Shown in pieces: positions 33,685 to 62,022 of a DNA stretch of 64,000 nt (within the stretch, counting starts at the first letter, position 1; each line of letters starts with the position of its first letter). Source of the DNA: Coprobacillaceae bacterium UN01-12pH3A (GTDB taxonomy: Bacteria > Bacillota_I > Bacilli_A > Erysipelotrichales > Coprobacillaceae); the NCBI GenBank assembly GCA_027676805.1, contig JAQENU010000001.1, positions 186,001 through 250,000 on the forward strand. The letters are read 5' to 3'. The notes below the pieces were generated by a model. That model searched no databases and had not been told where the DNA came from. It saw only the letters and a program-made list of their open reading frames with translations. Made by a program: the position numbers and the translations under genes.

Positions 33685-33836
33685 ACTATCATACTATCAT
33701 AAAGAAATGGTTACTTACGTAGTAATTTACATTTTCTTCCATTTTCATAAACGTGATAGTTACATTACCAGGAAGATAGGATGCGATCGTGATATAGATT
33801 CAGTTAATAAGACCATGGTCTTGCGTAAATAAAGAT

Positions 33837-33867
33837 AGGGCCCGTTTTGAAAGTACATACGAGCCCT
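33837..33867 (-). terminator. Terminator after the resolvase-like gene
   Basis: On the minus strand AGGGCTCG pairs with CGGGCCCT (one G-U pair) around a 15-nt loop and is followed by ATCTTTATTT. It closes the transcription unit containing the genes at 33922 and 34502. Confidence 0.6.
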
Positions 33868-33921
33868 TCTGCTTTTGAGGATCAATCGACCATGATACCA
33901 ACTTGATTCTTTTCACCTCAA

Positions 33922-34407: not shown

Positions 34408-34501
34408 ATACATCTCTCCTCATTTCAACACATTTCCTGAATAAAGAGTTTTGGTTCTTCATCCTGCAGAATCATTGAATCTGATTTGCCGTTATTCGCT
34501 T

Positions 34502-34648
34502 TTATTTTTCATGCTCTAAATTCATGTTTATTAAAGTACCTTTCGGATAAACTCTAACATCATTTTCTCCGCATTTGATAATGAGTTTATCTGAATTTTT
34601 ATTTTTCCGTTTTTCCTTTTTATATTTGTTTTTTATAACTAATTTCAT
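34502..34648 (-). CDS. Small Lys-rich protein (48 residues)
   Basis: A short complete frame starts with ATG at 34648, 8-10 nt after AAAAGGAT, and encodes 48 residues. The N-terminus is very basic (MKLVIKNKYKKEKRKNKNSD), followed by a small beta-like part with a Cys (LIIKCGENDVRVYPKGT). The family is not recognised. The good ribosome-binding site and its place 95 nt upstream of the resolvase-like gene support it as real. Confidence 0.5.
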   Translation of the reverse strand: MKLVIKNKYKKEKRKNKNSDKLIIKCGENDVRVYPKGTLINMNLEHEK

Positions 34649-34684
34649 TATTATTGATCCTTTTCAGCTCATTCGCTTGATATG

Positions 34685-34735
34685 AATAAATGATAAAGAG
34701 TGCGAATATATACATAATGCCAATTTCACACTCTT
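34685..34735 (-). terminator. Possible terminator of the giant surface-protein gene
   Basis: On the minus strand AAGAGTG and CACTCTT pair around a 26-nt interval with some inner pairing (GAAAT/ATTCG), followed by a loose T-rich stretch. It is 15 nt after the stop codon of the giant gene. The T-run is poor, so confidence is limited. Confidence 0.4.
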
Positions 34736-34750
34736 CATCTTGATTTCAGC

Positions 34751-49700: not shown

Positions 49701-51115
49701 TCAACTTCTTCTGTTTCAACCTTTCCTTCAAGTGCTGACAGGTTACTTTTTGTCTTAACAGAAAGTACACTTAAACTAGACACACTTTGTGCCTTTTCTT
49801 TAAAGTCTTCACTCTTTTTAAGAGTTGGATATTGTCCTTCTGTTTCAGTGAATGCTTCATTGTTTAGTTTTCCTGAAATCATATCCTTTGTATAATATGG
49901 TGTTGCCTTGTTATCTTCTAAATCATTGATCTGTGCATCATAGAAGCAGTCTGTATGTTCACCTTCGGAGAACAGCACCCTTTTCTTTCCTAGAAGAGAA
50001 GCTGTGATATAACTGTTCTTGACGTTGACTTCCTTACCAAATCCATAGGCATCTTCCTTGGCATTGATATAGCCGCTGACATAGCTGTCCTCGATACTTC
50101 CTGTTCCATTTAATATGAATCCTGCTGCATTCTTCCCTTCTACGTTCATGAATGCAAAGCTATTCTGTATTCTTACATCCGTTCCATTCAAAATAACTGC
50201 AGTATTTTTTTCTGCATCATTTGCCTCTACATAGAAACCTGTATTTGTTATATCTGTATTGACTGCATTGTCTGACAGTCTTCCTTTGATGACGATATTA
50301 GTTATCTTCGCATTGGTTACTGTATCAAATAATTGATTGGTGATTCCACTGATTGTATAACCATCACCATTTAAAGTACCAGTGAAATTGATATTACTTA
50401 ATATGTCTTCTTTGAGTTCAATATCCTGATCCAGTATAAAGGAACCAGACGGATTTGCAATAATCTGCTTCAGATCATCAGCTGTACTGATGATCGTATC
50501 TCCAGTTTCTGAGATATTAGGTATGTCTGTAAATGACAGCTCACTGCTATCCAATACTTTACCATCTGCATCAACTACTGAGAACTCATAGGTTCCGTTC
50601 TTTGGTACAACATAGGTTGCCTGATAAACGCCACTAGACACTTCTGCAGCACCAAGGCTGTCTTTCCCATTGACTGTAATATCAAAAGTTGAATGATATC
50701 GTGATACGATCGTTACTGTATGAGTTGCTTCATCTTGTTCGATCATGAGATCATCAAAGGAATCAACATGAACGCTTTCTTCTCCTTGTTTTGTATCAGT
50801 ATCATTGAATCCTACCAGCACATAGTCCCCATTTTTATGCACATCAAAACTCAGTGATTCACTCACTGGCTTTGTTTCAATCAGGGTGCCATCCTTATAA
50901 AGTTCAACCTTCGTTATGCCTTCCCTGACCTGACTGATATTGATCTTCTGGGTGTGAATGTCTGTCTCTTCACTTATGGTTGTATGCATATAGCCATTTG
51001 ACTGTGCAAAAACATAATTTCCCATTGGAAACTGTCCAGCGATCATCATGATGCAGACAAATATGATCATGATCTGATTTCTGTACTTTCCTACTATTCC
51101 TTTTCGCTTGTTCAT
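34751..51115 (-). CDS. Giant repeat surface protein (5454 residues)
   Basis: The protein has a signal peptide (about 10-38) and a GLUG-like beta-solenoid patch (about 215-390, with a second near 1700-1900). About 25 Ig/fibronectin-like units follow, recognisable by recurring 'GTWxWY' and 'YxLxxxDVGxxIxVxYxGxxxYxG'. From about residue 3510 to 5125 there are about 22 InlB B-type (Listeria-Bacteroides) repeats ('YTVTFDxxGG...GYTFxGWYT...LYAKW'). A chitobiase-C-like domain (PKGADIYFTVDGKEPSKSS), a Lys/Glu-rich stretch and one C-terminal membrane helix with a basic tail follow. No LPXTG motif is present, so it seems membrane anchored. The ATG follows AGAGG. It is the last gene of the recombinase-flanked c-di-GMP/LytTR set. 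It is likely an adhesin acting in aggregation or mating contact. Confidence 0.9.
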   Translation of the reverse strand: MNKRKGIVGKYRNQIMIIFVCIMMIAGQFPMGNYVFAQSNGYMHTTISEETDIHTQKINISQVREGITKVELYKDGTLIETKPVSESLSFDVHKNGDYVLVGFNDTDTKQGEESVHVDSFDDLMIEQDEATHTVTIVSRYHSTFDITVNGKDSLGAAEVSSGVYQATYVVPKNGTYEFSVVDADGKVLDSSELSFTDIPNISETGDTIISTADDLKQIIANPSGSFILDQDIELKEDILSNINFTGTLNGDGYTISGITNQLFDTVTNAKITNIVIKGRLSDNAVNTDITNTGFYVEANDAEKNTAVILNGTDVRIQNSFAFMNVEGKNAAGFILNGTGSIEDSYVSGYINAKEDAYGFGKEVNVKNSYITASLLGKKRVLFSEGEHTDCFYDAQINDLEDNKATPYYTKDMISGKLNNEAFTETEGQYPTLKKSEDFKEKAQSVSSLSVLSVKTKSNLSALEGKVETEEVEGIEWDKGKDEITAESNEIINRFALKDAAPVTSITAGTSTDAKTTQVTFPTTMGTYYKVVKSSEKAPTLPASHKAAIESGWKIMYWSGSYKQSGLEWNTEYKVYSTNLETVSTDGIIKTAYGKNGGKVSLTGIYDFNETMTATLSGTNTTKGTMIWETADTLNKDAVWTVVQTTAIDSTTDTYKVTNSESSKYLRARFVADDTTGYKGTLTVSTDSIIKQAITEVTIENKTKSDGTFTFNDELVANMKPADKENEVIFQWFYEGGNAETPIATGRNYQIKGDDVGKKLYVKAVAKSDGDFKDYKNSSPTSEVLAIQCDQPVATDHLTKVSNDDITVTLSMNTDSGLYRYGYKTNPDEAITPYSVLSRNKTNTTITGLSAHTTYYFYVQQVGENGYSDSAWSNDYITVKTDNDHVKGDVIISGNTIYNQTLTASITNNPDTQTGWFVWYRLDSDGKREATPLATGTAEYKLVKKDIKSKIEVVYEGTGDYSGEISTITDSIDKEEKSAPTDNLTIGEYSENRDTTIKVTLPTNADEEKYIIGISTTQQGVPIEQLDADHKLLTFGSGETYIITGLSRDTDYYLSVRYAENETHQKSDWIKTDKVIKQRTEKKDFKGKIEFTYETSQISVMQGKTINAELIPTDSSFNNKGNWTWIKINKDGTTEVINNFTIKTFENGHVGTSYTVPDSEEIGTKYKVTFEANVGYTGSIEATSDEVVKVEKVQNKTPNQENISMEAIDDTSIKVKMIAGEGQYRFWYKKADQNPWDSFVGLLNKTFNDPNDGYKELTADGDTGKNVFANVDVVIDGLDRNTEYIVRVQRVEDENGTASDFAYSTAKTENKSVTTEKTEIAGYVSVSGTTRYNETLTAVYNSATYASTGSDSDEDGTWQWYRGDTAIPDARSTTYKLVQEDIGQVIRVEYTIPENNSFRGHVDTKTAEIKKAVCVSPKITDIKDKENASGKMSMEITGTASENEQHIYYRVQRSDAVPPSRFPTEEEIVRDWKPVDSTTITVEQDANNFDLEPNTTYNIYFIKTATDTEEPSSILSMQHKMGTYTQKGTITFEKASDGKETFVAGQTVKATLTDSKNKRGTWKWYMSTSTYDGTSTTTMPSVNAAEDWEEITSGFSAILDTDYSELNLTEDMFAHYIRAEFVANEEYNYSGAVSSTEPQFVKKIYNETLTITSSTQDGNKNPKAYANSVISGTINNYAETGDINRDTVQFKIGDTIIKDGISKSRGKFTYTMPNDDTYKSLDGKEITAEISTPKIIELFVDSDFKPIATQTINSKMSTETSFNYTYGIPISNADDLEAFMKQTGSYTDRSRNASYVITDNINISGKGIIKYSENTFASTLDGDYHTIVGTKNPLFALTNNATIKNIISFNSDIDTVSLGSGTNASASVITREAKYTTFYQCFMVDSNVSSGRNTGFLVGLLWNGDIESCGSVGGSASTTAFSAGSLAGWLDGNGLTYEGIAKVSNSYSVSTIVTATQNGGMVGGVIGGGRGPAYNVYAASAIESNNTADGGAFGQNAGTSVETSNIFYDQTLSPNPSLYQNYSNQTINDVHKGIPKSTPNMIGTELQNSFDSYNGNDNTWTYKKGIYPRLTWIENHPVVLLYSVTRGAFISVDGQTLYDDMFNGDISGVIQIPTELQTKDYSIKILNSFGIEDESVLKKGDNGTIIPVGNAGEKATVEITYTEPDETIGGSAKNTYEFTVKEQVKAMDNFDIVDTEETAYTSSDKTATLPSPQMNQTLKTNIATDTTMHGISYQWYRRKSGTTESEAIKDATSQTYTLTSKDVGYEFCVLVNANDYASTYSNYTKAVVSIQPDAPTVSEITDSSVKLKATNGSDSFKYEFGYMRHDQNAMITQITGTYTKDELVEVKNLQRNKEYDFYVRIAKAADGSYDAGDWSLATSETTLKTKIEGKPKLGTGINNGTELSLTMEATNGQTGTWSLKRISDDGTEQDISFTSKENVTAYTLGKEDVGKRIQAIFTGRDDFEGTVESVVSDVVQKETKDKPESPVKVSETDTTVTIKMEKAGTYDIGYSDSTSGEKKIVKEKVTEGTEVTIVDLKRNTDYYIYARYSETDATATSSWSETLIAKTSQTAVTGNVTELGSGVVVNGTIIFTTPAIENLTGTWKLERVTTVEESESATTISPSSYTITNNTALSYKIDPKDAGNKLRVTFTGNGDFKEHITHTTDIVMNASQDIADMPTKATVSSLKDYSFNIQANDGTSTYQFGYALKGQDVNTITTVEATGTAKTNIAITGLARNTEYDIYVRKAAKTGYDAGEWKLITTQKTDRSTLTGTVEYVILDGKEEKPAKVGVADVGVTYKAKYLKGMYAQAGTDENAGHWQWYANNKEIQDATTDTYKIRPMEGDVEITVKYIANGDSNFKESRMASIGTLTKPAYEAPNTLPTVTALAEDGKAGSGLQITSTEFDNVFYYVQKASNATVPTTTTSSLAEENEAKPDQWFKATGDVTLSGLDANTEYVVYVARLEDGEHQSSGVISQRAVKTAKENLSLIRDISITEADDTKWKILQNKELRISNNTKSIDGVWQYYVTQNKADDSTWQNITSEVKVNTEEGTTDSYSYTKVNVPLKYANGFYIKAVFTGRGDYEGSQSYVSTETIIGTQIKGSAEISTGDSSQVFVPITVNYVYAKDAEGNDIKDEENGIWTWYRETAINSNTYEKISRENDTVGRTDHYTPTSEDVGKKLYAVYTGAPTGTFSGSVESSKISYIKRAEQTTPEAITLKQVNGTNVQISLPANMKTEGKTIAQPRLEYTIKGQNDWQKNGVSDAWIKDLKANTEYEVRVRFEGTSEYEPSAYGEVITVKTENQSFDVDHLSIEVTNTKDVFETGSIVTATFTGSGHDEGYFVIKRSDGTPLSEQPKATITKKSLFRSGTSTIEYTVTSDDIGSNIVIEYHANADAGTYGGYIEKSTQEVAKPQNPNSAGTPNLSIVQFSKTSLTAEISDDLEYVLNNSSTNIASADEGEWQKLTPDESGKNIHTFTGLDENKAYYLHARYAETQEYRSGEQSVKTQGTSTWKDTTHSITYTSDVENEHSQITNDNASEFTELSEAIELKDASRPGYEFLGWTSEALEISTATKKITIPKNTTKDIDVKSCWKLLDYSISYNLNNGTLKEGETNPTTYTIEDATFTLYNPEKKGYTFTGWTWADETTPQMTVQVEQSSFGNKSFTANWKLNEYEISYELGGGTNAVSNPVKYTVESEKITIGEPTKMGYDFLGWTWDGQTEPDKAPVINKGSIGDMTYTANWKATEYTITYNLDNGELETGKTNPEKYTIESDSITLNNPTRTGYTFKGWSSGDDNNPIQTVTIAKGSSGAKSYTAIWEATTYTITYIMDGGTNHADNPSGYKITDADITLKAPTRTGYVFKGWKADGAGEALETVTIASGSTGNLSYTATWEKVEYTVIFDSKEGSAVSQAGVKFEEKITKPTDPTKEGYTFAGWFNETTLDNEWNFDNDVVTANITLYAKWTVNQYTATFDVNGGDSVDPATITKNYQEELGALPVATRTGYSFAGWFTAATDGDEISATTKMPVNGATYYAHWTINQYTVKFDGNKGSDGAEIKKDYDVAIGELPSSTRTGYTFDGWYTEKSGGTKITEASKIPSKNTTYYAHWTINQYTVTFDGNGGSNGTAITADYDSELQTLPTSTRAGYTFDGWYTAKTGGTKILTTTKMPLDGATYYAHWKTVDYTITYDLNDGSSGDAKNHEDNPTTYTIESNAITLQNPTWTGRVFAGWTWDGHDTKELVVTIDKGTTGNKTYKANWELAAYTVTFDSQGGSDVADVPAQHGKPIAQPSDPVKEGYTFKGWYTTKEYAVAWNFEDAVMGNMPLYAKWEINHYAVSFNTNGGSSVDAQTVDHGNKAALPTEPTREHYEFAGWYGDDKLTTEFDFANTEIKGETTIYAKWTPVIYNITYDLDGGSVTLDKLNPIFYTVETESFTLNNPTKTGYEFKGWSTGDDSKAETTVTITKGTSGDLSYKAVWEKKSYTVTFDSKGGSAVEAAAIKYEEKITKPSDPTKAGYTFAGWYKETACENVWEFDKDVVSDETTLYAKWTANRYTALFDKNEGDTVSPESIEKDYLEELGTLPTATRTGYSFAGWFTAATGGNQITDKTKMPLDGTTYYAQWTINQYTVKFDGNGGSNGTDITADYDSELATLPTSSRAGYTFAGWYTEKIGGTKVETTTKVPAKDVTYYAHWTINQYTVKFDGNGGSNGTEITADYDSELGTLPTSTREGYTFEGWYTEKTGGTKILTTTKMPLDGATYYAQWKTVDYTITYDLNDGSSSEAVNHKDNPLTYTIESSEITLKAPSWKNHVFTGWTWDGHDTKELIVKIDSGTTGNKAYKANWVKSNLTVKFDTHGGSVIEDALAAYEIPISQPDDPTREGYTFKGWYTSAVYETEWNFDDNVMGNMTLHAKWEINHYDVTFDTNGGSAVDKQTIDHGAKANKPADPTKEYYAFAGWYSDEKLTKEFKFDSAIKATTTLYAKWTPVKYDITYDLDGGENHKDNPAAYTVEDEITLKAPVKKNYTFLGWTYKGQSEPKMTVTIIKGTHEALSYTANWKLNEYAVDFKTNSDDVIASITVQHGDKITRPEKEPVKAGYVFNGWYSDKECTKAWNFDKNVVTGKTTLYAGYKEILKSVESDTKSETNINKGDTVKLTAPKGADIYFTVDGKEPSKSSEKYNNGIIVNETMTIKAIAVKDGCADSSVATFIYYVKGKVSVDTEDSLVEINNKPDELIEAVLQEDEYKEYLSGTDVMVRISCKPIDKIEDKEVMNLLDGRTPSNYYDITVYKTVGDKDEVTVETLQHPIHIVLDVPEELYPETGVTREFKVLRIHEGNNALLDDLDEKLETVTFESDAFSSYILCYKDVSKDEPVVGPVDKPKTDLNEIKKGDHSLTAQQPAAGDEQVTAKEEEPEKKLEKTEKEKAKEKEEAKNTVYFFLIPIALLLAICIAFIAKIKHKAAKK
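35967..39430 (-). repeat. Two tandem ~1.73-kb super-repeats of eight InlB-type units
   Basis: Inside the giant gene the order of InlB-type units, judged by their joining residues (VEYT/KSYT, NQYT/NRYT, NQYT, NQYT, VDYT, AAYT/SNLT, NHYA/NHYD, VIYN/VKYD), repeats once. Boundaries near 39430, 37690 and 35967 give two blocks of about 1.74 and 1.72 kb (about 580 codons each). This points to a segmental duplication of eight units. Boundaries are estimates. Confidence 0.7.
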
Positions 51116-51153
51116 ATCGATACCTCTTTCATGAATGTCTCATTTAAATTGAT

Positions 51154-51336
51154 TCATTGTTTGTTTAGTTTCTTTTCTTCCATATACCTTTGCGTGATCG
51201 CATCAGCTTCCTCTTTTGTGATTACCTTCCCCTGATGATAGAACAGAACTTCCTGTTCTCTGTTCACCAAATGCACGACCTTCGCCTTGCGATAGTCCAG
51301 ATGTGTGAACTCACTGCTGCCTTCTATCTTTTTCAT
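51154..51336 (-). CDS. Small hypothetical protein between LytTR regulator and giant adhesin
   Basis: The product has 60 charged residues (MKKIEGSSEFTHLDYRKAKV, then a C-terminal helix ITKEEADAITQRYMEEKKL). It has no signal peptide or membrane helix. The ATG follows GGGAGGG. The family is not recognised. Its place between regulator and adhesin suggests a regulatory or chaperone-like accessory role, which is inference. Confidence 0.65.
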   Translation of the reverse strand: MKKIEGSSEFTHLDYRKAKVVHLVNREQEVLFYHQGKVITKEEADAITQRYMEEKKLNKQ

Positions 51337-51348
51337 ATTACCCTCCCA

Positions 51349-52155
51349 CTACATATGCAAATGTGCTTTGACTTCTGTGTATTTTGCTTTTGATACCGGC
51401 ACAATGAATTGATCGGCCAGACATAGTTCAAATGCTTTTATACTTGTGACATAAAAGCGATTGACACAGAAGCTCTTATGGACTCTTACAAACATATCTT
51501 CCTGCAATTGGCTGATCTGCCGCTCCAGTTCTGTAATACTCCCTCTGGCAAATGTATCTCCATCCAATGCATGAATCAGTGTATTCACATTGAATGCTTC
51601 CAGATAAAGGATGTTACTGGTCTGAATTTTATGTGTGACATTATCTCGATCCTTGATCATTAGATGACCGGAGCGCTCTACCTCTTTTTTGATCAGCATA
51701 TCAACATATTTTCTTGTGAATTTTCCTACGCCATGTGGAAAGATTTCATCACGTTCCACATTGGTCAAAGGATTTGATACATGCATATGCGTGAGATATA
51801 GTGTTCCTTTCTCCTCTTTCCATGTAAAAGTAACACGCTGCATATCACGATATATTTCTCCGCTTGCTTCATCGGTGATTCCTATATATCTTCCGGCGAT
51901 AACGCAGCTGTTTCGATCATGTGATACACATTGAAAATCCTTAGATGACAGACTGATTTGCGGCAGTGCCGTTTTCTCTTTTTCTAATTGTTGTAGGATC
52001 ATCGCCCTTCCCTGATAATATTCAATGTCATTGGAACCGATCCATAAGCAGTCTTCATGAAGATGCTCAACAACAAGACGATGATCTCCACGATAATGTG
52101 CTGTCAGCATATCATCTGTCAACTGTATACACTCTGCAATTTTCTCTTTTTTCAT
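51349..52155 (-). CDS. NTF2-like sensor plus LytTR DNA-binding regulator
   Basis: The 268-residue regulator has an N-terminal NTF2/SnoaL-like domain (about 1-130; 'HLHEDCLWIGSNDIEYYQGR') and a C-terminal LytTR domain (about 160-265; 'DNVTHKIQTSNILYLEAFNV', 'VRVHKSFCVNR'). LytTR proteins bind direct repeats and often control surface proteins and competence-like functions. The start at 52155 overlaps the stop of the EAL gene as ATGA. Its N-terminal domain resembles the N-terminal domain of the EAL protein encoded next to it, including 'ITWIGTGKNEV'-like phrasing, so both may sense the same ligand. Confidence 0.8.
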   Translation of the reverse strand: MKKEKIAECIQLTDDMLTAHYRGDHRLVVEHLHEDCLWIGSNDIEYYQGRAMILQQLEKEKTALPQISLSSKDFQCVSHDRNSCVIAGRYIGITDEASGEIYRDMQRVTFTWKEEKGTLYLTHMHVSNPLTNVERDEIFPHGVGKFTRKYVDMLIKKEVERSGHLMIKDRDNVTHKIQTSNILYLEAFNVNTLIHALDGDTFARGSITELERQISQLQEDMFVRVHKSFCVNRFYVTSIKAFELCLADQFIVPVSKAKYTEVKAHLHM

Positions 52156-53927
52156 ACCTTCATCACTTCCTTGTTCTTCTCCCATATATCTGTGAATTCA
52201 TCGGCATGTACTGGTTTCCCGACCAGATACCCCTGTCCGATATCACATCCAGCTGCTCTCACGAACTCCAGCTGTTCTCTTGTTTCTATTCCTTCGCATA
52301 TGACTGTCATATTCATTTGATGCGCCAGTTCTATGATTTTTTCCATAATGATCTTGGATCTTGGATTTGTATGACAATCGATCAGTAAAGATCGATCAAT
52401 CTTCAATATATCCGCAGATACCACACTTAAAAGATTCAAAGAAGCATAGCCTGTCCCAAAATCATCGATTGCTAATTGAAACCCTTTTTTATGTAATTCA
52501 TTAGCCAGCTGCATCATCCGCTCACTGCTCTCAACAAATGCAGATTCTGTCAGTTCAAATGCAATATAATGATGCGGTATCTCGTATTTATCGACTACCG
52601 AACAAAAATCATTCAAATAGCTTTTTTCTTCGATATGCAACCGTGATTGATTGATGGAGATTGGGGCTATCTGAATATTTCTATCGATCCACATACGGAT
52701 GCGCTGACATACCTTTTCCAACATATAAAAGTCAAAACTCAATATCATTCCATATTCCTCGAATACAGGCACGAAATCATCCGGCATACGTAGGTTGCCA
52801 TTCTTAAGTTTCCAACGAGTCAGTGCTTCTCCGGATATGATTTCTAATGTATGTATATTGAATTGTGGCTGTATATACAGTTGGAACTCATCATCATCCA
52901 TAGCGACCGGTGCATCTTCCAGAATCTTGCTTTTATAATACTGACGACTCATCATTCCATCTTCATAATAAACATAATGACTTCCAGATAGTGTCTTGCT
53001 GATACTCTGCATCGCCATAAGCGCACGATCCGTCATATCCTTGATATATTCTTTACGATTGTCTTTGATTAAATAAAGTCCTGCATTCAAATGGATTTCC
53101 ATTCCAAGCTCTCTTACCATCCTGCGATCGATCAATTGTTTGCGAACATTCTCTAGTCGCTCTTCAAGCTGTTCCTTATTTTCGTATCGGTATAGCATTG
53201 CAAAGATATCTTTTTCCATACGGCCACATGTTTCATTCTCATGCAGTGTCTTTTTTAAATTTTCCGCAATATTTTTTAGCACCTGATCGCCTGTCTGATA
53301 ACTGAACTTGCGATTGACGAACCGAAAATCACGAATACCAAACTTAATCAGTACATAATGCTGATCATATTCTTTCTGTAGAATTTCATTGGCTGAATAC
53401 TCGAATCCTTGTAGATTATTGATTTTTGTCAATGGATCTATAAAGGAAGCTCTTCGTATATCATCCGCCATTTTTGCATATTGCGATTTCGCAACATTAT
53501 AATTAAAATAGAATTCCTCTCCCTGTATCCCTGCAGGAATGGAATTATGCACATGGATGATCTTCCAACCGTTCGTCTGCTTGATCCAAACAACACTGAA
53601 ACGCAGTAACCCATCTTCTGGAAGAATCATTTCTTCATCTTCTCCACGTACTTTCAATACTGCCAATGTGAGGCAGACATCGTTAGCCAATTGACGCACT
53701 TCATACCATTCATTAAGAACGATAAAGTGTCCTCCATAAATATCCATTTCCTTTTGAAAGAAATTATGTGCCTCTTCTACACTTAAGCAAACTTCATTTT
53801 TACCAGTTCCTATCCATGTAATCTGGTCACTAAGATAAAAAGAAAGCCGAGCATAATCACGCTCCTTAAAATAAAGTTCAGTTACTTCACGACTCAAACA
53901 CTCTATCTGATTTTCTACCGTAATCAT
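52152..53927 (-). CDS. c-di-GMP phosphodiesterase (NTF2-like, degenerate GGDEF, EAL)
   Basis: The 591-residue protein has an N-terminal NTF2-like domain (about 1-140), a GGDEF domain (about 165-325) whose signature is degenerate (GRMEKDIF where R-GGDEF is expected), and an EAL domain (about 335-585). The EAL catalytic motifs are intact: GEALTRW, ELTES, DDFGTG, KIDRS, EGIET and QGYLVGKP. It should therefore hydrolyse c-di-GMP rather than make it. No membrane helix is seen, so it is cytoplasmic. The ATG follows GAGGA. The segment bounded by inverted 22-bp sites begins 107 nt upstream, so expression may be phase variable. Confidence 0.9.
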   Translation of the reverse strand: MITVENQIECLSREVTELYFKERDYARLSFYLSDQITWIGTGKNEVCLSVEEAHNFFQKEMDIYGGHFIVLNEWYEVRQLANDVCLTLAVLKVRGEDEEMILPEDGLLRFSVVWIKQTNGWKIIHVHNSIPAGIQGEEFYFNYNVAKSQYAKMADDIRRASFIDPLTKINNLQGFEYSANEILQKEYDQHYVLIKFGIRDFRFVNRKFSYQTGDQVLKNIAENLKKTLHENETCGRMEKDIFAMLYRYENKEQLEERLENVRKQLIDRRMVRELGMEIHLNAGLYLIKDNRKEYIKDMTDRALMAMQSISKTLSGSHYVYYEDGMMSRQYYKSKILEDAPVAMDDDEFQLYIQPQFNIHTLEIISGEALTRWKLKNGNLRMPDDFVPVFEEYGMILSFDFYMLEKVCQRIRMWIDRNIQIAPISINQSRLHIEEKSYLNDFCSVVDKYEIPHHYIAFELTESAFVESSERMMQLANELHKKGFQLAIDDFGTGYASLNLLSVVSADILKIDRSLLIDCHTNPRSKIIMEKIIELAHQMNMTVICEGIETREQLEFVRAAGCDIGQGYLVGKPVHADEFTDIWEKNKEVMKV

Positions 53928-54033
53928 TCCGATTCCTCAACTATCCGCCTGCGTTCATATCTACATACAACTTTCGATATTCTCAAGCAACCTCTCCCAC
54001 GATTTACATTCACAAGTTCACATGAAACTCCCA

Positions 54034-54055
54034 CCACATAATGTGTATTATGTGG
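54034..54055 (+). repeat. Inverted site A (22 bp) bounding the recombinase-adjacent segment
   Basis: Arms CCACATAAT and ATTATGTGG (9 bp, perfect) flank an asymmetric centre GTGT. This is the structure expected of a core site for a tyrosine recombinase. It matches site B (54531-54552) in inverse orientation at 20 of 22 positions. Confidence 0.65.
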
Positions 54056-54530
54056 TTTTGAGAATAAAAAAGCATACTGTACTAACAAACACATGTATTA
54101 ATATGGGAATTTTTACCTTTAAAAATATGAATTATGGCGTAAAAAAAAGTCAATAAACTTTGGCTTCTCTTATCTGATTTTATTATAAGTGCCTATTTAT
54201 GGGCGATTAGAGCTATTTTTTAGTCATCTCATGATGAACTATTTTCAGTATGCCCATCAAATTGTAAACATTATTTGACAAAATAGAACAATTCACAAAT
54301 ATATCAGCCCATTCACAATAAACGGTTGTAAAGATTTTAAATCGTGTTAATATGTTCATAGAATAGGTGTTTTGTATGATTTTTCTGTGACATTTCATAT
54401 TGATTAAAAATCATATGACATCTTATTAAAAACTGCTGTTTATGCCCATTTTATCGTCTAATTTAAAGATAGTAAGAATGATAAAATAGCCTATAACAGT
54501 TGTTCAAATATATAAATCTAAAGCTCATCA

Positions 54531-54552
54531 CAACATAATACACATTATGTTG
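54531..54552 (-). repeat. Inverted site B (22 bp) bounding the recombinase-adjacent segment
   Basis: Arms CAACATAAT and ATTATGTTG flank ACAC. The reverse complement has the centre GTGT and matches site A at 20 of 22 positions, the two differences being symmetric (second base of each arm). It lies 8 bp past the recombinase stop codon. Confidence 0.65.
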
Positions 54553-54559
54553 TTTTATT

Positions 54560-55420
54560 TTATATGCTCAAGGGTATCACTAAATCCATTTTTGAAAGTG
54601 ATTTCTGGCATTCCTTACCTGTAATCATTGTGTAGATTCTCGTTGTCTCAATACTGGCATGACCAAGCAGATCTGCAAGTCTTACTACATCTTTCTGAAG
54701 ACGATAATAAGTCAATGCAAATAAGTGTCTCAAGTTATGAGGAAATACTTTTTTAGAATCCACTCTCGCATCCTGACATAATTTCTTCATTGCGTTCCAG
54801 ATATTACTGCGATCCATAGGTTTACCATTCTTTGTAATGAATACTGCTCCTGATGAAATATTTTCCTGTTTGCAATAATCTTTCAGCATCCTTTTCAGTT
54901 TCTTTGGGATGAATATTGTTCTTATCTTGCCTTTATTATGGACAACTGCTTTTCCTTCCTTGATTGCCTCCACTGTGATATATTTATGTTCCGATACTCT
55001 TATACCGGTACCACAAATTGTTTGCAGCAACATATACAGACGTTTGTTATCATTCCTTAGTGCTGTATCTAATAAACGCTTATACTCATCTTTAGTTAGT
55101 TCTTTGTCTTCCTCATAAAAAACAGATCGCTGTACCTTGTGAAGTTTCAATTTCAAATCACTCAACTTCATATATTCGAGGAGTCCATTTAGAGCTACCA
55201 GCATACTGTTGATGCTAGAGACTTTGTAAACCTCTGAAAGACTGTTCTTATAAGCAACAAGTTTTTCTTTTGTTATCACTTTGTCATCTTCTGGCATATA
55301 CTCATAAAAGCGTATGACATCTCTCATATATTTATCGATCGTTGCTTCACTTCTTTCTTCCCCATATAAAAATTTTCTGAAGTTCCCCACAACTTTCAAA
55401 TCTAATACCGTTCTCTTCAT
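54560..55420 (-). CDS. Tyrosine recombinase (XerC/integrase family)
   Basis: The 286-residue recombinase has a SAM-like N-terminal core-binding domain (about 1-95) and a catalytic domain with visible residues: Arg in GTGIRVSE (about 138), HxxR in HNLRH (about 228), His in LLGHAS (about 254) and the nucleophile Tyr in TRIYT (about 262). The start at 55420 has AAAGGAG upstream; a longer frame to 55507 has no support. At under 300 residues and without an AP2-like arm-binding domain it is more like XerC/FimB-type inversion or resolution enzymes than ICE integrases. The neighbouring inverted 22-bp sites suggest DNA inversion as its job. Confidence 0.8.
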   Translation of the reverse strand: MKRTVLDLKVVGNFRKFLYGEERSEATIDKYMRDVIRFYEYMPEDDKVITKEKLVAYKNSLSEVYKVSSINSMLVALNGLLEYMKLSDLKLKLHKVQRSVFYEEDKELTKDEYKRLLDTALRNDNKRLYMLLQTICGTGIRVSEHKYITVEAIKEGKAVVHNKGKIRTIFIPKKLKRMLKDYCKQENISSGAVFITKNGKPMDRSNIWNAMKKLCQDARVDSKKVFPHNLRHLFALTYYRLQKDVVRLADLLGHASIETTRIYTMITGKECQKSLSKMDLVIPLSI

Positions 55421-55555
55421 TCTATCCTGCTCCTTTAATAATTTTAATTTCATGATAGCATTTTGTGATAGTAGAATCACTGGTAATAAATGGAATTTAT
55501 ATATCAAAACAGAAATTTATTTGATAAATACTATGAAAATTATTCCTATAAAAAT

Positions 55556-55586
55556 TTAAAAAAAAGATGCTCACTGTAAGCATCTT
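55556..55586 (-). terminator. Intrinsic terminator after the 55604 gene
   Basis: On the minus strand AAGATGCT-TACAGTG-AGCATCTT is followed by a run of at least six T. It separates the XRE gene pair from the recombinase gene. Confidence 0.85.
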
Positions 55587-55603
55587 GACATTGGAATGAT
55601 ATA

Positions 55604-55939
55604 TTATTCCATATTACTTTCTTTTTTTGTCTTGTTTCGCATCTGCAGCATCAAATCCACATATATATTTCTATCATGAATGTTCTGAATGAAGTTCATT
55701 GCTGTACAAAAACCATTTTCAAAATCATATGGAGAAGCTATATTGATTATATCCAGACAAAGATCAGATAATTCTTCCACCAGTTTCTTTTGTTCATCAT
55801 TTGCATTTTCCCTCAAGCTATTTAATAGATTTTCCATTTTTACAAAATAGTCCTTATAATCTTCAGATTCGAAACAACGCGAATGATTACCAAGTTCACA
55901 TAGCTCATAAAAAGAGTGTATTAGATTTTCATCTTCCAT
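55604..55939 (-). CDS. Small helical protein, DUF6809-like
   Basis: The product has 111 residues and is all helical (YFVKMENLLNSLRENANDEQ, 'LVEELSDLCLDIINI', 'FENGFCTAMNFIQNI'). It resembles small DUF6809-type proteins frequent on Firmicute mobile elements; their function is unknown. The start at 55939 has GGAGG 5 nt upstream and overlaps the XRE gene upstream, so the two form a pair. Confidence 0.55.
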   Translation of the reverse strand: MEDENLIHSFYELCELGNHSRCFESEDYKDYFVKMENLLNSLRENANDEQKKLVEELSDLCLDIINIASPYDFENGFCTAMNFIQNIHDRNIYVDLMLQMRNKTKKESNME

Positions 55940-56201
55940 AATTACCTCCAAAGAAATCTGATAAAGAAATATCTAAAGCTTTGGTCATATGATGCAGACA
56001 TAATAGAGAGGGATTTTGCGATCCTTTCTCAACGATACATATAAAATTTTTATGTAGGCCAGCCATTTCTGCCAATTCGTTTTGTGTTAGCTTTCTTTCG
56101 ATCCTTAGATTGTGTATTCTCCTTCCTACATTTTCCAAAAACGCTCTATCCTCACTATTATATGGAATCGGTCTGATTCTCTTCGTATTTTTTAATTTCA
56201 T
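55929..56201 (-). CDS. XRE family transcriptional regulator
   Basis: The product has 90 residues with a clear Cro/C1-type helix-turn-helix (about 22-75; 'IHNLRIERKLTQNELAEMAG', 'NFICIVEKGSQNPSLL'). The ATG at 56201 has GGAGGTG 6 nt upstream. It is transcribed from a promoter of the shared GCTGACA type (56221-56249), also present before parA and the gene at 59679, so it may be the regulator of that promoter set. It is cotranscribed with the small helical gene. Confidence 0.75.
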   Translation of the reverse strand: MKLKNTKRIRPIPYNSEDRAFLENVGRRIHNLRIERKLTQNELAEMAGLHKNFICIVEKGSQNPSLLCLHHMTKALDISLSDFFGGNYGR

Positions 56202-56220
56202 ACATTTCACCTCCATATTC

Positions 56221-56249
56221 ATTATGTCGTGTTGCCTTTGCTATGTCAG
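56221..56249 (-). promoter_or_regulatory. Shared-type promoter of the XRE gene
   Basis: Minus strand: CTGACA, 17 nt, CATAAT, with GCTGACA at -35 and CACGA directly before the -10. It shares these extra bases with the promoters at 59550 and 60086. Confidence 0.7.
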
Positions 56250-56259
56250 CGTACAAAAT

Positions 56260-56288
56260 AAAAAACTTTCCGTATTCGTTACAGAAAG
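56260..56288 (-). terminator. Intrinsic terminator after the 56290 gene
   Basis: On the minus strand CTTTCTGTA pairs with TACGGAAAG (one G-U pair) around ACGAA, followed by six T, immediately after the stop codon. Confidence 0.75.
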
Positions 56289-56289
56289 C

Positions 56290-56559
56290 CTAATCAATAT
56301 CTGAATTTAATTTGATTCCTGATTTTTCTTCGATAGAATCTACATATGTTTCTAAATCTATGTAGCCTTTTGTTAGGTTCTCAACTTTCTCTGTCAATAG
56401 TCCTAAGATATATCCTATCTCGTCTTTTGATAATTTAGTATCATCCATTAAAACGATATCACACAGTACATCAACAAGTGATGATATGTATATACGGCTT
56501 ACCGTTTCTGTAATCTTTTGCTCTCTTATTTTTCTAAGTTGTTCTTCTCTTCTGCTCAT
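56290..56559 (-). CDS. Hypothetical 89-residue helical protein
   Basis: The family is not recognised. The N-terminus is basic and helical (MSRREEQLRKIREQKITETV), the rest acidic and helical. The ATG has AAAAGGAAG upstream. It lies between a candidate parS site and a terminator, within the partition region, and might be a small partition or regulatory accessory protein. Confidence 0.55.
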   Translation of the reverse strand: MSRREEQLRKIREQKITETVSRIYISSLVDVLCDIVLMDDTKLSKDEIGYILGLLTEKVENLTKGYIDLETYVDSIEEKSGIKLNSDID

Positions 56560-56656
56560 ATGATCGCTTCCTTTTTAAATATTATTGCACTAATCAATGG
56601 AAAGTTCAAACTTCACAATGTCTTAATTGATGAACACATATAGACCTTACGACTTC

Positions 56657-56680
56657 TACATGTTCAAATTTGAACATGTA
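56657..56680. repeat. Candidate parS site 1
   Basis: A perfect 24-bp palindrome centred on the invariant core TGTTCAAATTTGAACA. It lies 4 bp from the stop codon of the ligase gene. Four copies of the core occur, all within 3.6 kb around parAB. Confidence 0.7.
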
Positions 56681-56683
56681 ATC

Positions 56684-57637
56684 TCAGCTAACATCTGGGC
56701 CGCAAATACATTCTTCGGCTTTTTTATCATCTCTGAATCCCTTTAGCACTGGCTGTCTTAACTTCCCAGTATCTTTATACATATAATTTATAGTACAGAC
56801 TACTATTGGCATCAACCATATGATTCCTTTTATTTTCAAGAAGGGAAAAATAGGATCATGTGATTTTAAAACATTATAGTTTTTCATAAACATAAGATTA
56901 TTGACTCCCAAGGAGACATTTCCTCGATACATCAGATTTCCTTCCTTACTATATTGTCCTAATATGAAAGTTAATCCTTCCTTATTATTTTGATAAAAGT
57001 ATCCACAAATAATAAAATCATTATCATTGGTATTTTTAATTTTTATCCAGTCAACACTTCTCTTACCAGGGCGATAGATACTGTCTTTTCTTTTGGCTAC
57101 TACTCCTTCTAAGTTTCGTTTTAGAACAGCTTCATAATAAAGTTCTCCTTGCTCTTCAATATACCTGGATACATATATTCGCTCACCATCACGAACATTC
57201 AAACTCAAACGATTCTTTCGTTCGATTAAAGGAAGATTCATGATAGTTTCTTCGTTTAATTCAAGTATGTCAAATGCAACAAAAGATACAGGTGCTTCTG
57301 ATGCTGCTATTTTGATTTTGAATGAATCTTTTAAGATTGATCGCTTCTGCATTCGGTGGAAGTTTGGGACTCCTTTTTCAAATAAAACCAGTTCGCCATC
57401 TAAAATGCATTTATGTTTGACACATGTATGGATATCCTTTAATTCCGGATATAATCGAATTAGTGATATGTTTCTTTTATTTCTAAGATCTGTACCTTTT
57501 TCAGGATTAAGATATGCGATGCATCGCAATCCGTCCATTTTTAACTCAAAGATATAATCCGGATCACTGAATGGCTGATGCTGTTCTTTGATCAACATAG
57601 GCTCAATGTTCTTTTCGATAAACAGTTTATTTTTCAT
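56684..57637 (-). CDS. ATP-dependent DNA ligase
   Basis: The 317-residue enzyme shows the nucleotidyltransferase motif I, ELKMDGLRC, with Lys33 as the AMP-accepting residue. Further motifs are 'LDGELVLFEKGVP' (about 75), 'EGVVAKRKDSIYRPGKRS' (about 175) and 'DWIKIKNTNDNDFIICGY' (about 190), then an OB-fold domain. This is the LigC/LigD-like bacterial ATP-dependent type, while the host will have an NAD-dependent LigA. It may seal nicks during replication or transfer of the element. The ATG has only a weak Shine-Dalgarno sequence. It lies between two candidate parS sites. Confidence 0.85.
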   Translation of the reverse strand: MKNKLFIEKNIEPMLIKEQHQPFSDPDYIFELKMDGLRCIAYLNPEKGTDLRNKRNISLIRLYPELKDIHTCVKHKCILDGELVLFEKGVPNFHRMQKRSILKDSFKIKIAASEAPVSFVAFDILELNEETIMNLPLIERKNRLSLNVRDGERIYVSRYIEEQGELYYEAVLKRNLEGVVAKRKDSIYRPGKRSVDWIKIKNTNDNDFIICGYFYQNNKEGLTFILGQYSKEGNLMYRGNVSLGVNNLMFMKNYNVLKSHDPIFPFLKIKGIIWLMPIVVCTINYMYKDTGKLRQPVLKGFRDDKKAEECICGPDVS

Positions 57638-57712: not shown

Positions 57713-57745
57713 AACAAAAAAGCAATCGTCAATTGACAAATTGCT
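57713..57745 (-). terminator. Terminator of the parAB operon
   Basis: On the minus strand AGCAAT and ATTGCT pair (with an inner TTGTCAATTGAC that can fold further) and are followed by six T. The stem includes the parB stop codon. Confidence 0.65.
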
Positions 57746-58715
57746 CTTCCAATAACAACTCAGGCAGTTTTTGATAGACCTTTTCTAGTATATCAATAAT
57801 ATATGCATTTGGGTCTTTACTTACCTGTATATGGTGCTCCTTAAACCAGTTTGGTAGAAGCTGCTGTGTAAATTCAAGTGATTTATTTATCACTGTATCA
57901 TCAAATTCTTTAGACTCTTTCTTCATTTTGCTGCCTTCATCGTCCTGTTCGCTATCTTCTTTTGATTGTGTCAGGTCAGTCATCTGAATTGTCTCTACAC
58001 TATCATCCATAGCAAGTTTTTTTATCTCTTTTGCTGTTTTGATGCTGACATCACCCGAATATTCTTTTAGACATTCATAAACCTTTATTTGCTGTTTTTC
58101 ATCCAAAGCTGCAAATACCAAAGCAACAGATACTTTTACTATGCCCAGATCCAAGCAATCCAGTAACTCAGGTATGAGTTTACTCAGTGTTAGATATCTT
58201 TGCATCTTGGAATCAGTCATCTCATACATATCTGCAAGATATGTTCGCACTACATTTCCTGCCATATCATCTTTATTGTTTTTCTTCTCTCGCAGCAATA
58301 CCTCATATTCCATCCTGAATGCTTTCGCCAACTCGGATAAGCTGAAATCACGTGTTCCTCGTTGAAAGAAATTTGTAAAATTGATAATTTCTACCTGCTG
58401 TACTTTTGTAAGGTTCCTTTTCACAATAGCCATTATCGTCTCTTTATGAGCAAGTTTACATCCCTCTACTCGATTATACCCTGCAAGCAGAAACAGCTCT
58501 CCATTCTGCTCATATGCAATGACAGGCTGTAATATCCCAACTGCGTTAATACTTTCAACCATTTTCTGCATTCGGATATCACTATAAAGTTTAAAACCAT
58601 GTCCAGGATAAGGTTTCAAATCAGAAATCTGTATTTCGTTCAATTCTGTATCAGATATGATTGGAGAACCATCATCCCCAAAAATACTATCCAGATCTCG
58701 TGGTCTTCTAACCAT
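57729..58715 (-). CDS. parB: ParB-family partition protein
   Basis: The 328-residue protein has an N-terminal ParB domain (about 25-120) with 'LKPYPGHGFKLY', 'MVESINAVGILQPVIA' and AGYNRVEGCKLA, a central helix-turn-helix region (about 130-230) and a charged linker leading to a C-terminal dimerisation region. The box corresponding to GERRxRA reads GYNRVEG, so CTP-binding residues differ from chromosomal ParB. It is 4 bp downstream of parA. It should bind the four palindromes nearby. The start ATG has GGGG upstream. Confidence 0.85.
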   Translation of the reverse strand: MVRRPRDLDSIFGDDGSPIISDTELNEIQISDLKPYPGHGFKLYSDIRMQKMVESINAVGILQPVIAYEQNGELFLLAGYNRVEGCKLAHKETIMAIVKRNLTKVQQVEIINFTNFFQRGTRDFSLSELAKAFRMEYEVLLREKKNNKDDMAGNVVRTYLADMYEMTDSKMQRYLTLSKLIPELLDCLDLGIVKVSVALVFAALDEKQQIKVYECLKEYSGDVSIKTAKEIKKLAMDDSVETIQMTDLTQSKEDSEQDDEGSKMKKESKEFDDTVINKSLEFTQQLLPNWFKEHHIQVSKDPNAYIIDILEKVYQKLPELLLEEQFVN

Positions 58716-58719
58716 ATCA

Positions 58720-59529
58720 CTAGACCCCCTTTACAACTTCAAGTGCTAATTTCTCAAATGCGATGGATGCCTTATCCTTGCTCCTATGCTGCAAGACACT
58801 CTTTGCATTTGTTGTCGCCTTAGCAACACAGGCACGACATGGAATCACGGTATCAAATACACGTACATATTTTTGATAGGACTGTCTTATATCCGCTTCA
58901 TACTCTTTGTGATCACTCCAGCCAAAATTCATCTTATTGATAACGATGCCAAGCAGCTTTAAATCTTTATTCGTCTTTTTCTTGGCTATCTGTGCAATTT
59001 CAATAGCATCTATGACACCATCAGAACTATATAATGATGGTTCCGATACGATCAGAATCTGTGTTGCAGCCGTATATGCCTGAACATTTTCAGCACCAGC
59101 TGTTGGTGGACAATCAATAAGGATGAAATCATATGCATCTCTGATACCTTCAAATATATTTCGATAGACTGTATTCCTATCAGACCTCTCATTAAAATCT
59201 TTTAAATATTTATACAGTGCTCGATTACCAGCAATGATATCTACATATCTTGTATGCGTAATAAATTTTTTGACCTGAAATTTCTTATCATCGAGGATAT
59301 TCTGAAGTATGACTCCTAGATCCTTGTTTTCAATAGTTTCAGACCTTTTAATAAGTCCACTGGTCATATTGACCTGTTTGTCACCATCAACACAAAGTAC
59401 CTTATAACCTAGCTTACTTAAAGCTACACCAAGATTGATTGTTACCGTCGTTTTTCCACATCCCCCTTTCTGATTCGTAACAGCAATAACTTCGCCTAAA
59501 TAACTGCTTTTTTGAACATCGTTTTTCAT
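58720..59529 (-). CDS. parA: ParA-family partition ATPase
   Basis: The 269-residue Walker-type ATPase shows the deviant Walker A motif KGGCGKTT (about residues 22-29), Walker A' VLCVDGDKQVN and Walker B 'FILIDCPPTAG'. It lacks an N-terminal DNA-binding domain, so it is the short (type Ib or Soj-like) form. The start at 59529 has AAGAGG 8 nt upstream; two further starts lie just upstream. It drives segregation of the circular or replicating form of the element. Confidence 0.9.
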   Translation of the reverse strand: MKNDVQKSSYLGEVIAVTNQKGGCGKTTVTINLGVALSKLGYKVLCVDGDKQVNMTSGLIKRSETIENKDLGVILQNILDDKKFQVKKFITHTRYVDIIAGNRALYKYLKDFNERSDRNTVYRNIFEGIRDAYDFILIDCPPTAGAENVQAYTAATQILIVSEPSLYSSDGVIDAIEIAQIAKKKTNKDLKLLGIVINKMNFGWSDHKEYEADIRQSYQKYVRVFDTVIPCRACVAKATTNAKSVLQHRSKDKASIAFEKLALEVVKGV

Positions 59530-59549
59530 TTTCATCACCTCTTAACATC

Positions 59550-60602: not shown

Positions 60603-61739
60603 TTATTTTCTACATAGCAACGCTATTGACTCCACATGCTCCGTCATGGGAAACATATCCACCGGAATCATCGTATCAAACGCATACCCCGCCTCTTTAA
60701 ACATCACCAGATCACGCACCTGTGTAGACGGATCACAGGAAATATAAACCACCTGTTTAGGTTTCAACGCTTTTACCGCATTGATAAAGTCCGGTGTAGT
60801 CCCGCTTCGCGGCGGATCCATAATCACCGCATCAATCTCCACCTTCTCCCTTGCCAGTTCCACCATAAACGCCGTTGCATCTTCATTGATGAAACGAATA
60901 TTTTTGATGTTATTCATCTTGGCATTATAAATCGCATCCTTCACCGCATCTTTATTCAGTTCCACACCAATAACCTGCTTCGCCTTTTTAGAAGCCACCA
61001 TTCCAATCGTCCCAATACCGCAATAAGTATCAATAACTGTTTCACTGCCTTTTAAGTCCAATAAAGACAACGCCTTATTATAAAGCACCTCACACTGATC
61101 ACGATTAATCTGATAAAATGATTTAGGTGAAACCTTAAATTTCAATCCACACAACTCATCTTCAATATAGCCTTTACCAAAAAGAACCTTTTCATCATTC
61201 CCTAACACAATACTCGTTTTTCTTGTGTTAATATTCATGACAATGGTTTTAATACTTTTAAACTGCGAAGTCAATTCCTTCACAAAATTCTTAGAACCAG
61301 GAAAAACAGACGAAGTCGTCACTAAAACCACCATTGTCTGATTTGTTTTAATACCTCGGCGAATCAGTACATGACGCAAGAACCCCTTACGGCGATCCTC
61401 ATTATAAATCTGAATTTTATATTTACGCAATAAAGAAGCAATTTTTTGGATAATCGCATCACTTTCTTCATCATGCAGCAAACACGTTGTATAGGGAATA
61501 ATCTTATGCGAATTTTCTTCATAAAAACCCGCTTCATTGCGCTGATTAAACCCCACAATCACCTTGTTTCGATAATGATAAGGACCTTTCGCTCCAATCG
61601 TATCTGCCACTTTAACCTGTGACAATTTCGCTTTTTTCACAAGCTGAACACAATATTCCCTCTTCTTTTTTAACTGCTCCTCATAAGCTAGATGCAAATA
61701 ATCACAGCTCCCACATTGTTTAAATATCTTACAGTTCAT
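60603..61739 (-). CDS. rlmD: 23S rRNA (uracil-C5)-methyltransferase, RlmD/RumA type
   Basis: The 378-residue SAM-dependent RNA methyltransferase begins with a Cys cluster (Cys3, Cys9, Cys12) that can carry an iron-sulfur centre. It has 'DTYCGIGTIGM' (SAM binding, about 240), 'DPPRSGTTPDF' (about 310) and 'ISCDPSTQVRDL' with the catalytic Cys (about 340). It ends with EHVESIALLCRK, the conserved C-terminus. It is a housekeeping gene; its 3' end is a well-known integration hotspot of conjugative elements in streptococci (rum). Here it directly borders the element. Whether it is RlmD or RlmCD cannot be decided from the sequence. Confidence 0.85.
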   Translation of the reverse strand: MNCKIFKQCGSCDYLHLAYEEQLKKKREYCVQLVKKAKLSQVKVADTIGAKGPYHYRNKVIVGFNQRNEAGFYEENSHKIIPYTTCLLHDEESDAIIQKIASLLRKYKIQIYNEDRRKGFLRHVLIRRGIKTNQTMVVLVTTSSVFPGSKNFVKELTSQFKSIKTIVMNINTRKTSIVLGNDEKVLFGKGYIEDELCGLKFKVSPKSFYQINRDQCEVLYNKALSLLDLKGSETVIDTYCGIGTIGMVASKKAKQVIGVELNKDAVKDAIYNAKMNNIKNIRFINEDATAFMVELAREKVEIDAVIMDPPRSGTTPDFINAVKALKPKQVVYISCDPSTQVRDLVMFKEAGYAFDTMIPVDMFPMTEHVESIALLCRK

Positions 61740-61751
61740 GTTATCCTCTTT

Positions 61752-62012
61752 CTAATGATGATTTCTTCCTCGCCAGCAATCATTCGAGCGATTATTGCCA
61801 TTATTAACAACAATTGCCAACACTTCTTTCATCCCTAAATCATTCAAAACCGTTAAGCGCTTATGTCCATCGATACAACGATATCCATTTTCCTTTACTT
61901 CTACCCTAATCGGAAAAGACAATCCAATCCTTTCCACACTGCTTTTTAATAAATCGTCATATTCTTTATTTATAAATTCAATCGTTTGAATCTGCAATTT
62001 TATAATCCGCAT
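61752..62012 (-). CDS. Small ParB-domain (ParB/Srx-like) protein
   Basis: The product has 86 residues and consists essentially of a ParB N-terminal-like domain: 'LLKSSVERIGLSFPIRVEVKENG' and 'CIDGHKRLTVLNDLGMKEV', where DGHKRL takes the place of GERR. A His/Asn/Arg-rich tail follows. The ATG at 62012 lies 5 nt after AAAGG. It is 12 bp upstream of the rRNA methyltransferase gene and 4 bp downstream of cardiolipin synthase, so it is a chromosomal operon member. The function is unknown. Confidence 0.65.
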   Translation of the reverse strand: MRIIKLQIQTIEFINKEYDDLLKSSVERIGLSFPIRVEVKENGYRCIDGHKRLTVLNDLGMKEVLAIVVNNGNNRSNDCWRGRNHH

Positions 62013-62022
62013 ATTCACCTTT

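Follow-up and report, generated by a model that had tools for sequence, protein, structure and literature searches.

Segment 54057–54529 of the window (the whole 64,000-nucleotide stretch of DNA analysed here) is probably flipped by an adjacent Xer-like tyrosine recombinase at two dif-like sites, which would switch an operon that encodes a phosphodiesterase (PDE), a LytTR regulator, a 60-aa protein and a large surface protein. An inversion switch had already been suspected in a first-pass annotation of this DNA, and the reading, drawn from sequence comparison, gains from relatives of the recombinase, namely from their site centres (matched at 73 of 73 testable loci), contig ends, orthologous loci with inverted segments, promoter directions and a second such module at locus L106; no strong promoter was found in the window segment itself.

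Recombinase, sites and operon in the window

In the order of minus-strand transcription, the window has the recombinase gene, a site, the segment, the inverted site, a leader, and the genes for the PDE, the LytTR regulator, the 60-aa protein and the surface protein. The features are as follows.

55564..55586, minus strand: terminator-like hairpin preceding the recombinase gene
54560..55420, minus strand: Xer-like tyrosine recombinase, proposed invertase (286 aa; PF00589 and PF02899)
54530..54553: recombinase-proximal site ACAACATAAT-ACAC-ATTATGTTGT, with the family motif
54057..54529: segment proposed to invert (473 bp, 26% GC; no strong promoter of the sigma-A type detected either way)
54033..54056: cargo-proximal site ACCACATAAT-GTGT-ATTATGTGGT, inverted relative to the other site, with the family motif
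52152..53927, minus strand: SnoaL-like, degenerate GGDEF and EAL protein, first gene of the proposed operon
51349..52185, minus strand: LytTR transcription regulator with a DUF4440/SnoaL-type N-terminus, overlapping the PDE gene by 34 bp
51154..51336, minus strand: 60-aa conserved protein, without a Pfam or NCBIfam match; 49% homologue in L106
34751..51115, minus strand: 5454-aa surface protein with fn3/Ig-like matches and 20 Listeria-Bacteroides repeat stretches

The first-pass annotation had described a recombinase of 286 residues adjoining a dyad site, two inverted 22-bp sites (20/22 identical, 475 bp between them), an asymmetric GTGT/ACAC centre between their arms, noncoding DNA inside the pair and four codirectional genes downstream, and all of these are present. 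Counted as 24-mers, the sites lie at 54033–54056 and 54530–54553 with 473 bp between them, and the largest ORF inside the segment, the only one of at least 60 aa, has 61 aa. The recombinase gene ends 6 bp from the proximal 24-bp site, and a leader of 105 bp separates the distal site from the PDE start. Each site is a perfect dyad with 10-bp arms. A pattern derived from the two window sites themselves (≤3 mismatches) matched exactly twice in the window and not once in 100 dinucleotide shuffles, so the pair is not a chance occurrence. The sites are each self-symmetric and their arms differ from one site to the other; inversion at the centre would therefore yield hybrid sites, and with these the switching rates might be unequal by direction.

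Residues R141, K163, H228, R231, H254 and Y263 of the recombinase, which we take to be the catalytic set, are invariant in 31 aligned sequences. The best NCBIfam models are XerA (143.4 of 220 bits) and XerD (118.9 of 329.6 bits), both scoring far below their cut-offs, and the nearest PDB chains are an XerC-like protein, XerA and XerD. The terminator-like hairpin upstream of the gene, one of five such in 50900–57000 (1.9 expected), suggests that the recombinase gene is transcribed on its own.

A family of paired sites beside related recombinases

The motif ACATAAT-N4-ATTATGT occurs in pairs beside homologous recombinases, and N4 varies between loci. When sites were picked by their arms alone, the N4 centres matched in inverted orientation at 73 of 73 testable loci and in direct orientation at none, a chance match being expected about once in 256 with even base use. 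These 73 loci were obtained from 109 recombinase hits in 108 sequences (window included), among the matches listed, after setting aside 6 duplicates, 16 hits followed by <700 bp of sequence and 14 whose two best sites were weak in the arms; the look-alikes L085 and L086 were counted separately, and L039 has two recombinases. The genome scan with the recombinase alignment gave at least 80 loci of 46–58% identity (closer relatives may exist) and the viral scan with the recombinase 11, with further loci coming from other genomes. Two good consensus sites were missing at 14 of the 87 loci with enough sequence, several of which have diverged pairs, and a third site is present at some loci, e.g., L018, L037 and L056. 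Self-complementary centres, which would leave a site directionless, were seen in 2 of 79 pairs against 5 by chance, a difference too small to use.

One genome, that of Hungatella hathewayi WAL-18680 (G003, L108–L144), has 37 recombinase matches, among which 26 have matched-centre pairs, 7 are spoilt by N runs and 4 are without a pair. The idea that each switch within a genome has a private N4 was rejected, as the 26 H. hathewayi pairs have 18 centres, with ATGA, ATGT and AAGT used three times each. Many distal arms in this genome have diverged (ACCCCATAAT proximal; ACTCTGTAAT or ACCCTCTAAT distal). The same recombinase family is found on 11 IMG/VR contigs (L081–L091), 9 of them with a site pair (≤2 mismatches between copies), and phages or prophages may also use the switch. 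Searches for close relatives returned none in plasmid, phage and viral collections, and none in 392 genomes of the order of G002 at E ≤ 1e-95 (up to 6 candidates scored per listed genome); they returned 3 of 395 genomes in the class of G001 at 1e-70, 1 of 43 in the order of G001 (G001 itself), 3 of 244 in the order of G312 at 1e-95, and 3 of 43 in the family of G412 at 1e-85, the same three.

A site-first scan of 315 genomes of one order found a perfect site in 31 and 11 close pairs in 6, all 11 with inverted centres. The recombinase (E ≤ 1e-25) is present in 6/6 genomes with pairs versus 6/25 whose perfect sites are all unpaired (Fisher p 0.0013). As for the latter six, the site lies beside the gene in G483, G544, G560 and G586, a near-perfect pair adjoins the recombinase in G413, and site and gene are on different contigs in G440.

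Likeness of the sites to dif

The Escherichia coli and Bacillus subtilis dif sequences given in PMC3025954 share 16 and 13, respectively, of the 18 core positions of the window site; in dif, a 6-bp centre is flanked by half-sites of 11 bp each (PMC2731167). The CATAA...TTATG core, the 11-bp half-sites, the 6-bp centre and, putatively, a Xer-type recombinase are common to both systems (PMC2731167, PMC3025954), whereas the window differs in that the half-sites are alike, the sites form close inverted pairs, their centres vary but match within a pair, and the proposed product is a local inversion. Instead of the single site near the terminus that characterizes dif, the window has a close inverted pair before an operon. 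Because the half-sites are alike, they fit one recombinase rather than XerC plus XerD, and the likeness of the core to dif suggests a single Xer-type recombinase acting on palindromic dif-like sites; the site family itself appears to be derived from dif.

Signs of inversion in relatives

Mixed orientations of a switch would break assembly, as repeats generally can too, and contig ends fall in the 300 bp after the recombinase at 13 of 80 loci, where the rate elsewhere predicts 1.07, and in the 300 bp before it at 1 of 80, both counts being among the matches listed. Loci L037 and L056 have co-oriented flanks (+/+), with 96.8% identity over 62 bp at the recombinase end and 74% over 625 bp in the first cargo gene, and their first cargo proteins are 75% identical, each with a weak TetR_N match; the segment between these flanks aligns inverted (74.6% over 323 bp, 3e-33). 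The segment is likewise inverted between L056 and L067 (72% over 296 bp), and no inverted segment was found between L037 and L067. The search of relatives for an inverted form, advised in the first-pass annotation, was thus rewarded at the orthologous loci L037/L056 and L056/L067 and not for the window element, of which plasmid, phage and viral collections held no second copy and whose segment was seen in a single orientation.

Promoters were scored by a weighted scheme of our own with a threshold of 12. Scores of at least 12 were reached by 44 hits in 82 segments, compared with 2.2 in shuffles (largest 6), and in 41 of the 44 the end of the -10 element is 15–65 bp from the site faced. Of the 82 segments, 41 have a strong promoter-like sequence close to one site and within the segment, pointing away from the cargo in 35, towards it in 6 and both ways in none; when best scores are compared, a looser criterion, away is favoured in 53 of 80, towards in 16 and neither in 11. 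The first ORF beyond the distal site is codirectional, reading away from the switch, at 70 of 78 loci, with two further loci having no ORF. The commonest matches among 67 cargo proteins are to the Listeria-Bacteroides repeat (7), BspA-type LRR (5), SLH (4) and dockerin (4); GGDEF matches occur in 3 of the proteins and EAL matches in 2. This set omits 12 of the 77 entries from relatives, takes four second genes in place of the first and includes two proteins from L106.

By these measures, the window segment is among the 41 of 82 without a strong promoter near a site and among the 11 of 80 favouring neither direction. Its sites are also widely spaced, as only one of the 73 spacings (range 147–534 bp, median 260) exceeds its 497 bp. 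No promoter in it reaches the threshold of 12, the best scoring 9.3 towards the cargo and 8.7 away from it. The promoter-like elements noticed in the first pass do exist and are weak; 53850–54620 has 10 of them, where shuffles average 5.5 (sd 2.1). The RNA structure of the leader is no more stable than that of shuffles (z -0.94), and Rfam gave no match in the window.

The downstream operon and the surrounding element

The first gene had been called an EAL phosphodiesterase; the EAL domain is indeed there, accompanied by a GGDEF domain and, at the N-terminus, a SnoaL-like one, both of which the name leaves out. The EAL, DDFGTG and CEGIE motifs are all present and, because the GGDEF motif position reads EKDIF, the product is probably a c-di-GMP phosphodiesterase only, a degenerate GGDEF with intact EAL motifs being what we take to denote a phosphodiesterase without cyclase activity. 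Comparison of the PDE and LytTR N-termini by BLASTP gave nothing (E 4.3), and the evidence for a shared sensor consists of the Pfam DUF4440/SnoaL matches. As for LytTR binding repeats, the window stretch has a single weak pair where 0.77 would be expected, L106 has none against an expected 0.58, L156 none against 0.79, and one lies upstream of the L155 PDE against 0.22; these counts do not support the presence of such repeats. The 5454-aa protein has a hydrophobic N-terminal segment and a C-terminal hydrophobic segment with a basic tail (both judged by eye), has no LPXTG-like motif in its last 120 residues and, by its architecture, is a possible adhesin. No terminator-like site was detected on the minus strand at 33800–35000, beyond its gene, and there may be read-through from this large gene into the codirectional transfer region.

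The proposed switch is situated on a conjugative element with the following genes.

25-2175: T4SS coupling protein
3965-5218: MobL relaxase
11116-13557: TraG P-loop/VirB4-like protein
28879-30264: DnaG-type primase
30249-31619: C5 methylase
56684-57637: ATP-dependent DNA ligase
57729-58715: ParB
58720-59538: ParA-like protein

The transfer region also encodes a second large surface-type protein, an NlpC/P60 protein of 1398 aa with 11 SpaA prealbumin-like stretches (17940-22136). The tRNA/rRNA uracil-5-methyltransferase-like gene and the phospholipase-D-type gene at 60603-63552 are chromosomal in appearance, and the element may therefore end near 60 kb; uracil-5-methyltransferase genes of this kind are known as insertion sites of ICEs.

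The PDE/LytTR module in other genomes

Locus L106 (G407, 3.6 Mb) has, in this order, a recombinase (60% identity), a site pair with the centre GAGT, and homologues of the LytTR regulator (44%), the 60-aa protein (49%) and the PDE (53%), so that the 60-aa homologue sits between the LytTR and PDE genes. Beyond the PDE gene come proteins with a weak signal-peptidase match and then CarboxypepD_reg-type repeats. The L106 sites have 411 bp between them and the best promoter score there, 10.0, is weak; long segments with weak promoter scores may be usual where the cargo is of the PDE/LytTR type.

At E ≤ 1e-110, the PDE has homologues in 2 of the 315 genomes of the order. In G412, an inverted site pair lies directly upstream of a 47% PDE homologue (L156), and a second homologue (L155, 49%) is without such a pair. 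There are six perfect sites in this genome in all, and they make up three pairs whose centres match in inverted orientation; the two remaining pairs precede an LRR-type protein and a large repeat protein. Its sole family recombinase (L105), which at 73% is the closest in a genome among the matches listed, has no adjoining sites and lies about 88 kb from the pair before the 47% PDE; the recombinase may thus act in trans. A streptomycin adenylyltransferase gene (PF04439; L105:7548-8429) is located about 1 kb upstream of this site-less recombinase gene.

LytTR homologues at E ≤ 1e-20 number 34 (425 candidates). Five are on contigs >10 kb that equal recombinase-cluster contigs in length (25130, 39381, 16971, 58528 and 24609 bp), a match made by eye between the 34 homologues and the best 120 of 7996 clusters, and only a hint of linkage. 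The equal 1615-bp contigs for LytTR and recombinase were dismissed as coincidence, both genes together being too big to fit.

Proposed mechanism and alternatives

In the mechanism that we propose, the Xer-like recombinase would act at the two palindromic sites, each with two like half-sites around a 6-bp centre T-N4-A, and the identity of the centres in inverted orientation would permit strand exchange. Inversion would turn a promoter, or another regulatory sequence, towards or away from the operon, and the outcome would be heritable ON and OFF cells, with the ON cells expressing the PDE, the regulator and the surface protein together. We infer that the window copy flips, by the local recombinase and with a promoter inside the segment; on/off control of its operon is, in our judgement, probable.

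Both dyads might instead be operators bound by a DNA-looping repressor or activator, one candidate being the HTH protein encoded nearby at 55929-56222, with no inversion at all, and perfect dyads with 10-bp arms do suit dimeric regulators. Yet a matched asymmetric centre is superfluous for operators, and the 73 testable loci all match inverted; in addition, orthologous loci have the segment inverted and close pairs track the recombinase (6/6 genomes with a pair versus 6/25 with unpaired sites), which leaves this account very improbable. The segment may, on the other hand, have inverted formerly and now be frozen in the window element, with the operon driven by another promoter. The want of a strong promoter in an unusually long segment speaks for such a history; the intact recombinase residues and the near-perfect sites with an identical centre speak against it, as does the L106 module, which is also long (411 bp) and weak in promoter scores (best 10.0), and we rate the chance of a frozen segment as just as low as that of paired operators.

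The least probable account, by a hair, has the segment inverted by host XerC/XerD instead of the local recombinase, the sites being dif-like: over the 18-bp core they agree with E. coli dif at 16 positions (sequence from PMC3025954). Three site pairs of G412 are also without an adjoining family recombinase, but that genome does have one, which shares a contig with one of the pairs. A dedicated recombinase beside the sites argues against host enzymes, although the loci were collected by recombinase; the site-first scan of the order does so as well (recombinase in 6/6 paired versus 6/25 unpaired genomes). To our knowledge, XerCD is to be expected in nearly all genomes, and near-universal XerCD alone would not explain the association of pairs with the recombinase.

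We accordingly prefer inversion by the local recombinase. The first-pass annotation further raised the possibility of a link between conjugation and aggregation; the element does carry T4SS and MobL genes, and the surface protein might conceivably help mating. A broader scenario, which we regard as rather doubtful, is one of bet-hedging, in which the private dif-derived switch of the element, hosted by an Erysipelotrichaceae-like bacterium of the gut, would stochastically make only some carriers lower c-di-GMP, make the LytTR regulator, show the 5454-aa adhesin and become sticky mating partners. The rule of ACATAAT-N4-ATTATGT, the same N4 in an inverted copy and a Xer-like gene should allow promoter-flip switches to be spotted without reads in Clostridia and Erysipelotrichales, and suggests a path from chromosome-dimer-resolution sites to phase variation. 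Since the conjugative element has this candidate switch in front of its c-di-GMP, LytTR and surface-protein genes, whether phase variation is tied to transfer can be tested.

Comparison with known systems

Among the open-access titles and abstract openings surveyed, none was on this site family or on an invertible switch with a PDE, a LytTR regulator and an adhesin on a conjugative element. We know of no c-di-GMP enzyme or regulator in front of cwpV of Clostridioides difficile. What cwpV and the proposal for the window have in common, by description and with site and recombinase left aside, is a large surface protein under a DNA switch, in cwpV a phase-variable cell-wall protein (PMC2784873, PMC3080850), where the protein promotes aggregation (PMC3080850).

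Surveys of gut invertons tie inverted-repeat groups to tyrosine recombinases (PMC11892184), and the invertible sites of Clostridia are reported to lie chiefly close to genes for signalling and chemotaxis (PMC5903667). Invertons of gut Firmicutes_A and Clostridia resemble the proposed window switch in being short and in having tyrosine recombinases and genes for surface or signalling proteins close by (PMC11892184, PMC5903667); the comparison is one of descriptions, and motif groups such as Firmicutes_A 139 or 125 could include the window family (PMC11892184). The IncI plasmid shufflon is likewise a recombinase-driven inversion on a conjugative element that affects an adhesin, PilV, but it makes PilV variants, whereas the window segment is intergenic and before an operon (PMC9045228, PMC5430464). 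Segments encoding alternative protein ends, as in a shufflon, were not found in the window segment, which has only a 61-aa ORF and itself lies 105 bp before the PDE start.

The invertible promoter of C. difficile pdcB (Cdi2) precedes a c-di-GMP phosphodiesterase with a degenerate GGDEF, and its recombinase is given as unidentified (PMC9286219). Shared with the window are the invertible-promoter reading, a degenerate GGDEF and EAL protein and short inverted repeats, whereas a 174-bp segment, imperfect repeats of 19 bp, a distance of 840 bp from the gene and a PAS sensor domain are particular to pdcB (PMC9286219). The portion of that paper used here, to which the window was likened by description, site sequences aside, mentions no operon with LytTR and surface-protein genes. 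The proposed window switch is a variant of known invertible promoters such as those of C. difficile pdcB and cwpV.
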